A stretch of 64,000 nucleotides of DNA, from contig JAHBUL010000004.1 of NCBI GenBank assembly GCA_019638085.1, positions 1-64,000 on the forward strand, read 5' to 3'. Each line of letters begins with the position of its first letter. The stretch's first letter is position 1. Source of the stretch: Flavobacteriales bacterium (GTDB taxonomy: Bacteria > Bacteroidota > Bacteroidia > Flavobacteriales_F > PHOS-HE28). The notes beneath the pieces are model-generated. The model had not been told where the DNA came from, searched no databases, and saw only the letters and a list, made by a program, of their open reading frames with translations. Positions 11,946 to 60,929 of this stretch are shown here, in pieces. The position numbers and the translations under genes were made by a program.

Positions 11946-12389
11946 ATGACTTTTACTTCCCAGCTCGATGAGATGCTCATCGCCCTCCGCCAGACCCAAG
12001 CGAGGCTGCTGGCACCCTTGGACCATCAGCAATTACTATTGCCAACCGATCCGGAGATCTTCGTGGAGGACGTAATGTTCTATGTGATGGATGAATGGGC
12101 AGAGGACCTTCGAAAGGAAGGTCATGTTCTGGACGAGATCACTTCCTGGAAGGACCCCGTGAGTCACTATCCACGTTACGAACTTCGATTGCGCGGAGGT
12201 GCCGTGCTGGACATGCTCTTCACCGGCAATTACCCCGAAAGCCTGCACCTGCACATCAGCAAAGGCATGGCCAACAAGAACCAGTTCAGTGATGCACAAG
12301 CCATGGAAGTACCGCTGCTGGTGAGCAACGATCCCAATGCATTGCTCTTTTCCATCATCGGTGGACTGAAGGATTTCGCGAAAGCATGA
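11946..12389 (+). CDS. hypothetical protein (147 residues)
   Basis: I do not recognise a family. The protein is soluble, without signal peptide or membrane segment, acidic in the first half, and contains EIFVEDVMFYVMDEWAEDL followed by a beta-rich section (HYPRYELRLRGGAVLDML). Codon use is like that of its neighbours, with GC-rich third positions. It starts at ATG 11946 and ends 59 nt before the inferred start of the SixA-type phosphatase on the same strand, so the two may be co-transcribed. Confidence 0.65.
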   Translation: MTFTSQLDEMLIALRQTQARLLAPLDHQQLLLPTDPEIFVEDVMFYVMDEWAEDLRKEGHVLDEITSWKDPVSHYPRYELRLRGGAVLDMLFTGNYPESLHLHISKGMANKNQFSDAQAMEVPLLVSNDPNALLFSIIGGLKDFAKA

Positions 12390-12448
12390 GTCGAGTGATC
12401 GGTTGCAACCCCGTTGAATGAGCTTTCTGCTTTTCAAACTCCTACCCC

Positions 12449-12934
12449 ATCAAAACGCTTTACATCGTTCGCCATGCCAAGAGCTCTTGGGCCGACCCTG
12501 GCAAGAGCGATTTCGAACGCCCTTTGAATGAGCGTGGCCTGCGGGATGCCCCGATGATGGCCAAGCGCTTCGCGGAGCGGAAGGAGCCGGTTGACCTGAT
12601 GGTGAGCAGCTCGGCTGCACGCGCCATTGCAACGGCACGCATTTTCGCCTCCACGTTGGGGGAGATGCGGATCCGCGAGGAACAGGACCTCTACCTGGCT
12701 GATGTCCGCACGCTGATGTCCCAGATCGAAAAGCTGCCCGAAAGCTCCCGACAAGCGATGCTCTTCGGACACAATCCGGGCTTGAGTGAGCTGGTGGAAT
12801 ACCTGAGCCAAACCGGACCCGGAGACTTGCCGACATGCGCGATCGTGCGTATCGACTTCAGTGCGGAAAGCTGGAAGGAAGTTTCCGGAGGCACCGGCAG
12901 CTTGGCATGGTGGGATGCACCTAAAAGTGGATAG
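12449..12934 (+). CDS. SixA-type histidine phosphatase, apparent ATC start
   Basis: 161 residues if translation begins at ATC 12449. The opening (I/M)KTLYIVRHAKSSW carries the RHG-type catalytic motif (RHAK, phospho-accepting His at residue 9). Further motifs are SSSAARAIATARIF and MLFGHNPGLSELVEYL with the second catalytic His. This is the SixA/phosphohistidine phosphatase branch of the histidine phosphatase superfamily. Upstream of 12449 the frame meets a stop at 12419-12421 without any ATG, GTG or TTG, and the first conventional start (TTG 12524) would remove the catalytic His. Homologues begin MKTLYIVRHAKSSW, so ATC stands exactly where ATG is expected. Confidence 0.85.
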   Translation: MKTLYIVRHAKSSWADPGKSDFERPLNERGLRDAPMMAKRFAERKEPVDLMVSSSAARAIATARIFASTLGEMRIREEQDLYLADVRTLMSQIEKLPESSRQAMLFGHNPGLSELVEYLSQTGPGDLPTCAIVRIDFSAESWKEVSGGTGSLAWWDAPKSG

Positions 12935-31425: not shown

Positions 31426-31438
31426 ACTACTGTAAGAG

Positions 31439-31512
31439 TAGCGCGAGAGAGACTTGAACTCTCGACCTCAGGATTATGAATCCTGCGCTCTAACCAGCTG
31501 AGCTACCGCGCC
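31439..31512 (-). tRNA. tRNA-Met (anticodon CAT), elongator-like
   Basis: A 74-nt cloverleaf on the minus strand: acceptor GGCGCGG/TCGCGCT with two G-U pairs, D-arm GCTCAGCTGGTTAGAGC, anticodon stem AGGAT/ATCCT with loop TCATA (CAT), and T-arm GAGAGTTCAAGTCTCTC. It lacks the initiator features (unpaired 1-72, three G-C pairs below the anticodon loop). An Ile2 tRNA with lysidine-modified CAT cannot be excluded by sequence alone. Confidence 0.9.
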
Positions 31513-57984: not shown

Positions 57985-58704
57985 TCAACGGTATTTCAGA
58001 ATGCACCATATCGCATGCACACCGTCCTTCCAACCGATTTTCTTGCCCTCGGCTGCCGACCGTGCACGGTAACTTACGGGCACCTGCGACCAGCGCAATT
58101 CCTTTCGCCGCGCCAGCGCAGCAGTCACTTCTGGTTCAAACCCGAACCGCTGTTCATATAATGCAAGGCTTCGGGCCACTTCCAGGGACATCAGTTTATA
58201 GCACACCTCCATATCCCCCAAAGACAGCCCAGTGAACCGATTACTTAGCCAAGTAAGAAAGATGTTCGCCATATAGCTGCCAAACGGAAAGCCGGAATAT
58301 GGAAGGCCCTTGTGGAACCTGTTGCCATAAACAACGTCCGCTTTCCCACCCAACACCAGACCTAACATTGGCACAATATCGCGCGCATCCAGTTCAAGGT
58401 CCGCGTCCTGCATCACCACCCAAGTCCCGGTTGCCGTATTAAGGCCTTGGTGGATCGCAGCGCCCTTGCCCCTGTTCACTTCTTGGCGCACCAAATACAC
58501 CAAGCCTTGCCCGTGCTCCGCAATGAACTGCTCGACGACTTCCGCCGTCCGATCTGTGGAACGGTCGTCCACCACGACAACCTCCTTGCCAATCCCGCTT
58601 GGAAGCTCCAAATCCACCAACTCGTTCAATACGGCCACAATGGTCCGCTCTTCGTTATAAGCAGGTACGAGGATGGAAAGTTTCTGTGTAGAAATGGCCT
58701 TGAT
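57985..58704 (-). CDS. GT2-family glycosyltransferase, apparent ATC start
   Basis: 239 residues if translation begins at ATC 58704. The opening reads (I/M)KAISTQKLSILVPAYNEERT, giving the first beta-strand of the GT-A fold, then VVVVDDRSTDRTAEVV (first Asp pair), GKGAAIHQGLNTATG and the DxD motif in VMQDADLELDARDI. The remaining MEVCYKLM and GFEPEVTAAL are typical of dolichyl-phosphate-type glycosyltransferases. No ATG, GTG or TTG lies between the upstream stop (TAA at 58710-58708) and the GT fold start; the first GTG (58638) would delete the strand. ATC is thus the best start. It is convergent with the membrane protein gene. Confidence 0.85.
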   Translation of the reverse strand: MKAISTQKLSILVPAYNEERTIVAVLNELVDLELPSGIGKEVVVVDDRSTDRTAEVVEQFIAEHGQGLVYLVRQEVNRGKGAAIHQGLNTATGTWVVMQDADLELDARDIVPMLGLVLGGKADVVYGNRFHKGLPYSGFPFGSYMANIFLTWLSNRFTGLSLGDMEVCYKLMSLEVARSLALYEQRFGFEPEVTAALARRKELRWSQVPVSYRARSAAEGKKIGWKDGVHAIWCILKYR

Positions 58705-58793
58705 GTGTTACCGACCGTACCTCATGTCAACGGGCAATCAATCGATCCGTGTGCAAGCACGCGGCATTTCTCGAACGGACCTCAAAGCACGCC

Positions 58794-60929
58794 CTACTTC
58801 AGCCCCCGCTTTTCCAGCAACGGCCCCACCTCGGCATCCCGGCCTCGGAAGTCGCGGTAGAGTTCGCCGGCATCCTTGCTTCCACCCGTGGAAAGGATGG
58901 TCTCGCGGAAGTGCATGCCGTTGTCACGCGTCATGCCACCGTGCTCCTTGAACCACTGGAATGCATCGGCCTCCAATACTTCGGACCACATATAGGCGTA
59001 GTAACCGGCTCCGTATCCACCGCCCCAGATGTGGGAGAAGTAGCAGGTGCGGTAGCGCGGAAGCACCATGGGCAGGTCCAGGCCGTAGTTGGCCAGCGCT
59101 GCTTTTTCGAATTTGGGTACGTCCTGCAACGGAGCATCGGCAGGCAGCATGTGCCATTGCATGTCCAACAGGGCTGCGGCGAGGTATTCCGTAGTAGCGA
59201 AGCCCTGGTTGAACTTACCGGACTTCTTGATCTTGTCCACCAAGGACTTCGGCATGGCCTCCCCGGTCTTCCAATGCTTGGCATAGTTGGCGAACACCTT
59301 GGGATCCATCGCCCAGTTCTCGTTGAACTGACTGGGGAACTCCACGAAGTCGCGCGGCACATTGGTGCCGGAGAAGTACGGGTACTTCTGCTTCGAGAGC
59401 AGACCATGCAGGGCATGCCCGAACTCATGGAACATGGTGATCACATTATCGAAGCTGAGCAACACGGGCTGTCCATCAGCGGGCATCTGCACGTTCATGT
59501 CCTGGGTGACCACGGGCTTCTCATCCAGCAGGTAGCTCTGGTCCACAAAGCTGGACATCCATGCGCCGCCCTGTTTGTTGTCTCGGGAGAAATAATCCGC
59601 GTAAAACAGACCGATCACACTGCTATCCGCATCGAACACCTCGAACACCCGCACTTCCGGCAGGTACGTGGGCAGGTCGTGGCGTTCCTTGAAGGTGATG
59701 CCGTACAACTCATGGGCAGCGAAGAAGACGCCATCCTGTAGCACCCGGTCCAGTTCGAAGTACGGCTTGATCTGGCTTTCGTCCAGGTCGTACTCGGCCT
59801 TGCGCACCTTTTCGGCATAGTAGTCCCAGTCCCATGGCTCCAAGGTGAACCCGCCCTTCTCCTTATCGATCATTGCTTGAAGCTTCGCGGCTTCGGCCTT
59901 TGCGTTCTTCACGGCAGCAGGTACCATGCCCGTGAGCAGCTTCACGGCAGCATCGGGGGTCTTGGCCATCTGGTCGTCCAGCGTATAAGTAGCATAGTTG
60001 GGGAAACCGAGCAGCTTGGCACGCTGGGCACGAAGCTGGGCCAAGCGGCTTACCGTGGCCTTCTGGTCGGTGGCGTTGCCCAACATGCCGCGGCTGATGG
60101 AAGCTTTGAAGATGCGCTCACGAAGTGCGCGGTCGTGGAGTTCCGCCAGTACAGGCTGCATGGTGGTGTTCTGCAAGGTGATCAGCCATTTGCCCTCATG
60201 TCCTTTGTCCTTGGCGGCGGAAGCTGCGACTTCGATCTCCGCCGGGGCCATGCCATCCAATTGAGCGGAGTCGTCCACCAATACGGTGGCATTGTTCACC
60301 TCCTTCAAGAGGTTCTCGCTGAAGAGCGTGCTCAACTTGGACTCTTCTTCGTTGAGCGCGCGCAGGGACTTCTTATCGGCTTCATTCAACAAGGCACCGG
60401 CCCGAACAAAGCGGGTGTAGTAGCGCTCCACCAAATAGATGGAAACACTATCCAGACCTCCATCCGCTCGCCCATCATAGATCGTCTTGATCCGCTCGAA
60501 GAGCTTCGGGTCCAACGTGATGGCATCCTGATGCGCGGAGAGCTTGGGGGCCATCTCCGTATTCACCGCTTGAAGCGTATCGTTCGTATTGGAGGAAATG
60601 AGACCGAAGAAAACATGACTGACACGTGCGAGTTCCTGTCCGCTTTTCTCCAAGGCAACGATCGTATTCTCGAAGGTGGCTGGCTCCTTGCTGTTTGCAA
60701 TGGCCTTCACTTCCACCATGTGCTTGCGCATACCTTCCTCCATGGCAGGCGCGAAATCGCCGTTGTGGATCTGGCTGAAGTCAGGTGCTTGCAAATAGAG
60801 CGCACTCGGGTTCGTGAAAGGGTTTTCACGGATGGAGGTCGTGGCTGGCATATCGGACTTGGGGGTTTCACCGGTGCCGCATGAGGCGGCAAGCAAGATC
60901 ACTGACAACGCGGCGAGGGAATGGTTCAT
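58794..60929 (-). CDS. M3-family metallopeptidase, lipoprotein (Dcp-like)
   Basis: 711 residues from ATG 60929. A lipoprotein-like signal ALSVILLAASC (Cys17) is followed by the thimet-type all-helical fold. The zinc site is HEFGHALHGLL with a further Glu in the following helix, and FVEFPSQFNENW is the downstream motif of M3 peptidases. Length and layout match peptidyl-dipeptidase Dcp, which cuts dipeptides from peptide C termini. The upstream ATG (60950) would put a MAHFHIR segment ahead of the signal. A weak -7-like box, TACATTCG, lies 21-28 nt ahead. Confidence 0.92.
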   Translation of the reverse strand: MNHSLAALSVILLAASCGTGETPKSDMPATTSIRENPFTNPSALYLQAPDFSQIHNGDFAPAMEEGMRKHMVEVKAIANSKEPATFENTIVALEKSGQELARVSHVFFGLISSNTNDTLQAVNTEMAPKLSAHQDAITLDPKLFERIKTIYDGRADGGLDSVSIYLVERYYTRFVRAGALLNEADKKSLRALNEEESKLSTLFSENLLKEVNNATVLVDDSAQLDGMAPAEIEVAASAAKDKGHEGKWLITLQNTTMQPVLAELHDRALRERIFKASISRGMLGNATDQKATVSRLAQLRAQRAKLLGFPNYATYTLDDQMAKTPDAAVKLLTGMVPAAVKNAKAEAAKLQAMIDKEKGGFTLEPWDWDYYAEKVRKAEYDLDESQIKPYFELDRVLQDGVFFAAHELYGITFKERHDLPTYLPEVRVFEVFDADSSVIGLFYADYFSRDNKQGGAWMSSFVDQSYLLDEKPVVTQDMNVQMPADGQPVLLSFDNVITMFHEFGHALHGLLSKQKYPYFSGTNVPRDFVEFPSQFNENWAMDPKVFANYAKHWKTGEAMPKSLVDKIKKSGKFNQGFATTEYLAAALLDMQWHMLPADAPLQDVPKFEKAALANYGLDLPMVLPRYRTCYFSHIWGGGYGAGYYAYMWSEVLEADAFQWFKEHGGMTRDNGMHFRETILSTGGSKDAGELYRDFRGRDAEVGPLLEKRGLK

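Follow-up and report, generated by a model that had tools for sequence, protein, structure and literature searches.

A GT2 glycosyltransferase frame without a canonical start codon and likely near-AUG initiation at a sixA-type gene in a Flavobacteriales-type genome

A GT2 glycosyltransferase gene on the minus strand of the window (the whole stretch of DNA analysed here, 64,000 nucleotides) has no ATG, GTG or TTG ahead of its conserved N terminus, and a second gene of the same stretch, encoding a SixA-type histidine phosphatase, carries ATC at the position where most of its relatives carry ATG. The coordinates of both genes and of the features around their starts are collected in Table 1. Comparison across the genus makes near-AUG initiation likely at sixA; at GT2 it is only plausible. 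Rare, gene-specific near-cognate initiation is the most likely account of the two genes, with the comparison speaking for it at sixA; that ribosomes start at the AUH codons of both genes, and that GT2 follows the example of sixA, we infer. The best single explanation, to which we give a little less than an even chance, is that a divergent second GT2 (dolichol-phosphate-mannose-synthase-like) without a canonical start is weakly translated, with no Shine-Dalgarno pairing, from a near-cognate AUH codon, for which AUU at 58695 is a somewhat likelier candidate than AUC at 58704, and that sixA is a case of the same kind. The initiator tRNA would pair with two of the three bases of such a codon, so that output would be low.

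Table 1. Coordinates within the window of the two genes, their candidate start codons and neighbouring features
Feature	Coordinates	Strand	Remarks
Conserved gene of unknown family directly 5' of the SixA-type gene	11946..12389	plus	No Pfam match
Mini-ORF MSRVIGCNPVE-stop, 11 codons (putative leader ORF)	12386..12421	plus	Start overlaps the preceding gene's stop (ATGA); ends 27 nt before ATC
SixA-type histidine phosphatase gene, read from ATC	12449..12934	plus	PF00300, 46.2 bits; TIGR00249, 59.6 bits
ATC at the SixA-type start column	12449..12451	plus	Context at the 87th percentile of homology-supported ATG starts
GT2 (DPM1-like) glycosyltransferase frame	57985..58704	minus	No ATG, GTG or TTG start; conserved part of 232 codons intact
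GTG, first canonical start codon of GT2	58636..58638	minus	Within the GT-A fold; a start here removes PF00535 positions 1-25
ATT, likelier near-cognate GT2 start by position	58693..58695	minus	-5 codons from LSI
ATC of the initial annotation	58702..58704	minus	-8 codons from LSI
In-frame mini-ORF ATG AGG TAC GGT CGG TAA (MRYGR-stop)	58708..58725	minus	Directly 5' of the GT2 frame

A GT2 frame without a canonical start codon

On the minus strand the order is ATG (58725) AGG TAC GGT CGG TAA (58710-58708) CAC ATC (58704) AAG GCC ATT (58695), continuing with TCT ACA CAG AAA CTT TCC ATC CTC GTA CCT GCT TAT AAC GAA and, further on, GTG (58638). From the upstream TAA as far as the first strand of the GT-A fold, KLSILVPAYNEER, the frame contains no ATG, GTG or TTG, and the strand is encoded 5' of the first GTG. 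Both points had been made in the initial annotation, and they are confirmed by the sequence and by PF00535. The gene belongs to this family with its N-terminal strand included: PF00535 scores 98.5 bits against a cut-off of 23.3, the match covers profile positions 1-120, and position 1 falls on residue 10 counted from ATC. In the alignment the family blocks QDADLE, RFGFEPE and EGKKIGW are all kept, and across 232 codons there is neither a stop nor a frameshift. The same-strand gene on the 5' side, presumably M3-peptidase-like (a name given by our own reading, without a library search), ends at 58794, and 89 nt separate its stop from ATC.

Homologues were taken from 58 related genomes and from a genome collection, and scanning 110 loci for the motif yielded 87 N-terminal rows, that of the window gene among them; several contigs are present twice among these rows, and loci with a differing motif are uncounted. 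A canonical ATG, GTG or TTG lies within 15 codons of the LSI motif in 86 of the 87 rows, the window gene being the exception.

The same genome (hereafter, G000) carries a second, ordinary GT2 copy with an ATG (G000:C34:194560), and we take this copy, the genus orthologue, and the window gene both to be DPM1-like GT2s of Bacteroidota. In a quick GT2 tree, for which the careful search is unfinished, the C34 copy groups with the copies of the genus, and the window gene stands on a very long branch (7.18) with its placement unsure. The two share family and motifs at 52% identity, but the window copy lacks a canonical start and differs at 27 of the 104 columns conserved at at least 95%, where the median row differs at one. 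A search of 395 genomes of the class over its C-terminal 141 residues found no other match above 57%, the best value, and gave no orthologue with which its start could be compared. Its codon adaptation is weak (16th percentile). The next most divergent rows, from Kordia, depart at 17 and 15 of the conserved columns, and 11 of the 17 are changed in the window copy as well.

This divergence bears on the strongest competing explanation, that GT2, a divergent paralogue, recently lost its start codon and became a pseudogene, the orthologous GT2 with its ATG being kept on contig C34. The presence of that second copy favours such a loss, and the weak codon adaptation and the 27 changed columns also fit decay. 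The 232 codons free of stops and frameshifts argue against it, however, and because the Kordia homologue has changes at 11 of these 27 columns too, the window gene looks like a divergent subfamily rather than a product of plain decay. We regard a recent loss of the start as unlikely, though it deserves serious weight. An error of base calling or assembly at the GT2 start is a rather improbable reading. The gene is found in one assembly only and is the single row of the 87 that lacks a start, and nothing about GT2 itself speaks against an error; yet the same class of oddity is met at SixA in the assemblies of five species.

Candidate GT2 start codons: position and context

Past the TAA and ahead of the GT-A strand, the frame has no start-like codons other than ATC and ATT, and the homologues offer a guide to choosing between them. 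In these, ATG is placed 2-9 codons ahead of LSI; the commonest start is an ATG at -5 (24 of 86 rows), which is the position of the ATT at 58695, and a further 17 rows have ATG at -4. No row of the 86 has a start at -8, the position of the ATC at 58704. Sequence context was scored with a model built from 93 homology-supported ATG starts, with percentiles measured against the model's own training set; on this scale ATC 58704 stands at the 51st percentile and ATT 58695 at the 39th, both ordinary values for a start, and GTG 58638 and ATG 58725 both at the 15th. Folding of the start region is unexceptional, 25% of the supported starts being at least as open as the region at ATC and 47% at least as open as that at ATT. 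Position thus favours ATT and context slightly favours ATC; taken together, ATT is no weaker a candidate than ATC. The initial annotation was right that ATC and ATT are the sole start-like codons here, but its choice of ATC is not secure, and the C-ATC-AA(A/G) signal that it saw as common to GT2 and the SixA-type gene does not hold up, since ATT 58695 fits the N-termini of the GT2 homologues better.

Left unmentioned in that annotation was the in-frame ATG at 58725, five codons ahead of the TAA. Were it the true start, the TAA at 58710-58708 would have to be a sequencing error, a nonsense mutation or a site of readthrough. The codon lies 15 codons before LSI, outside the range seen in the homologues, and in the low-scoring context given above, and we consider this reading very unlikely. 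Translation of a shortened protein from GTG 58638 has in its favour that this is the first canonical start codon of the frame; it is scarcely credible, as the first GT-A strand would be removed and PF00535 falls to 77.7 bits, beginning at profile position 26 with the first 25 positions lost, and the context is equally poor.

The SixA-type start column across the genus

As the initial annotation described, the SixA-type gene reads ATC (12449) AAA ACG, and the ATC aligns with the ATG of relatives. The gene passes PF00300 (histidine phosphatase branch 1) with 46.2 bits against a cut-off of 21.7, and with 59.6 bits it misses the equivalog cut-off of TIGR00249 (74.5 bits), so we name it SixA-type only. 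It has in common with the SixA phosphohistidine phosphatase of that model the RHAKSSW motif and the N-terminal strand, and its neighbour is conserved; it differs in its lower score and in the AUC or AUU start found in part of the genus.

The gene is present in 42 of the 45 genomes of the genus. At its start column, 30 loci show ATG in 25 cases, ATC in four and ATT in one, and a search for the ATH pattern at this start matches 5 of the 45 genomes, the same five as among the 30 loci. Across the class, the ATH version with RHAKSSW is found in 2 of 395 genomes, each belonging to this genus. The DTG version is found in 101; the two counts omit genomes whose SixA departs from the RHAKSSW motif. In a quick gene tree the five ATH rows fall within one clade of seven rows (seven species) together with two ATG rows. 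The ATH label requires 2 changes on this tree, against a mean of 4.8 when labels are shuffled, and only 1 of 500 shuffles is as low. A single origin with a return to ATG, or several origins, are both possible.

The reading frames of the ATH species look selected. Identity at first, second and third codon positions is 0.75/0.81/0.50 between G000 and G013 and 0.70/0.79/0.50 between G004 and G032, and pairs that include ATH species also give 0.91/0.93/0.83; third positions diverge most. Because ATH recurs in 5 of 45 genomes, clustered on the tree and in frames whose third positions are the most divergent, independent base-call errors can be taken as excluded for SixA, and the AUC of sixA is, on this comparative evidence, not a base-call error. 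The earlier argument that the ATC starts go beyond chance base-call error therefore stands for this gene. The G000 frame is closed on its 5' side and reaches no further canonical codon until 25 codons downstream, by which point the RH motif has been passed. Canonical alternatives are present at the other ATH loci: an ATG at -2 codons in G031, a TTG at -15 in G004 and at -11 in G032, and a TTG three codons downstream in G028. Only G000 is free of a plausible canonical alternative, which makes it the sole clean instance of AUC; G028 comes second.

In place of AUC initiation, one might propose a +1 frameshift over CCCC from an out-of-frame ATG 31 nt upstream (12418). An upstream ATG in a frame that requires a +1 shift is indeed found in both G000 (31 nt) and G028 (25 nt), but the N-terminal extensions that would result bear no relation to each other (MSFLLFKLLP and MKPPIRPS), the slip site shows no conservation, and the context of ATG 12418 stands at the 4th percentile as compared with the 87th for ATC; we judge such a shift most improbable.

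The setting of the gene differs between loci with ATH and those with ATG. A conserved gene lies 5' of SixA on the same strand in 29 of the 30 genus loci and is often better conserved than SixA itself. From the stop of this upstream gene to the SixA start column, the spacer measures 59, 110, 69, 98 and 69 nt in the five ATH loci; it is shorter than 50 nt in 18 of 23 ATG loci and 9-19 nt in 17 of them, one identical row and one row without the neighbour having been dropped from this comparison. The ATH starts are also less structured, with folding energies over -30..+30 of -3.4 to -10.0 kcal/mol against a median of -12.7 kcal/mol for ATG (one-sided p 0.002; three other spans, p 0.005 to 0.019), in tests that ignore kinship although the five ATH rows are kin. 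A section of a study of Flavobacterium johnsoniae reports that mRNA structure tunes initiation in that species (PMC6847099).

Two smaller observations concern this locus in other genomes of the set. The stop of the gene 5' of SixA is likewise overlapped by a frame of 11 codons, unrelated in sequence, in G004 and G031. The SixA-type gene of G014 (G014:C261:3185-3664, outside the window) has an in-frame TAG.

Start codon use in the genome and known near-cognate starts

How often conserved N-termini lack a canonical start was surveyed in 1,168,810 bp of the same genome, with 1.6 Mb from one relative (G010) for comparison. Gene calling by codon usage gave 978 genes in G000 and 1188 in G010, and 305 of the former had a match. 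Among 217 comparable N-termini of G000, 19 were flagged mechanically and two, GT2 and SixA, were kept by eye; the 17 dropped had a canonical codon just downstream, were antisense or out-of-frame readings, or were internal matches. The mirror test in G010 flagged 18 of 216 N-termini, none of which was kept by eye. Homology-supported starts in G000 (n=129) comprise 93 ATG, 25 GTG and 11 TTG. Because only 2 of the 217 N-termini are clearly without a canonical start, genome-wide or routine use of AUC as a start is not supported by this survey. The proposal of real AUC use in the initial annotation thus survives as likely at sixA but not as a general practice, the two cases being the very genes from which it had been drawn. 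A codon-usage screen without homologues proved too blunt, catching SixA and missing GT2.

The unusual initiator tRNA or initiation factor that the initial annotation had suggested looking for did not appear. The core of the initiator tRNA is exact (G000:C18:35789), and 37 of 44 genus genomes match it within two mismatches; the IF3 C-domain, at 117.4 bits, falls within the 111.9-119.8 seen across the genus when one genome, whose match is split, is omitted. The tRNA-Met of the window, at 31438-31512, is presumably not the initiator, judging from our own reading of its anticodon stem. The infC frame (G000:C36:53551-54168, outside the window) has TTG as its first canonical codon (AGT TTG GCA AAA CGA), so that a non-AUG start is probable for IF3 itself in this genome.

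In E. coli, infC and pcnB start at AUU. AUU, AUC and AUA are counted among the start codons of bacteria in a passage of a review, which describes them as discriminated by IF3 (PMC4611024), and an excerpt of an E. coli N-terminomics study gives one ATC upstream start as well as ATT starts in ribE (PMC13245402). The codons described here resemble the IF3-discriminated starts, as presented in that passage of the review (PMC4611024), in being a third-base change of AUG at the AUG position of homologues, and by analogy a low, IF3-sensitive output would be expected at GT2 and sixA. They are unlike them in that the host phylum, according to part of the F. johnsoniae study, does not use Shine-Dalgarno pairing (PMC6847099). 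The genes differ too, being a SixA-type phosphatase and a GT2, in a genome whose own infC seems to start at TTG. A literature search on AUC starts, of limited reach, found no report of an AUC or AUU start at sixA.

Base-call error or noise in the annotation is the usual explanation given for AUC and AUU starts, and the genes that have them are shortened or missed by gene finders limited to ATG, GTG and TTG. The recurrence at sixA over separately assembled species opens the use of AUC and AUU in the absence of Shine-Dalgarno pairing to direct testing, within a phylum whose start selection is poorly understood; the GT2 gene taken alone is a modest result. A more ambitious reading, which we offer as conceivable though on the unlikely side, is that a Shine-Dalgarno-free Flavobacteriales-type clade has fixed AUC or AUU to keep initiation at sixA deliberately weak, in association with a longer spacer after the conserved 5' gene and with a leader of little structure. 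Ribosomes ending on leader ORFs (that of 11 codons in G000; MRYGR before GT2) would then reinitiate at the near-cognate codon, an arrangement that GT2 would also use in this genome.

Two other frames outside the window drew attention. An ATC-led frame at C35:76059 was dropped, as it appears to be antisense to an N terminus that we take, by our own reading without a library search, to be pyrE-like and to precede a Nudix gene. In a GT9 heptosyltransferase-type gene (G000:C23:141425-142537, minus strand) CTG seems to be the start codon of the conserved N terminus, LKQFLIIQTAFLGD; there is no in-frame ATG, GTG or TTG upstream, and the reading of CTG as the start rests on a match of 24.7%.
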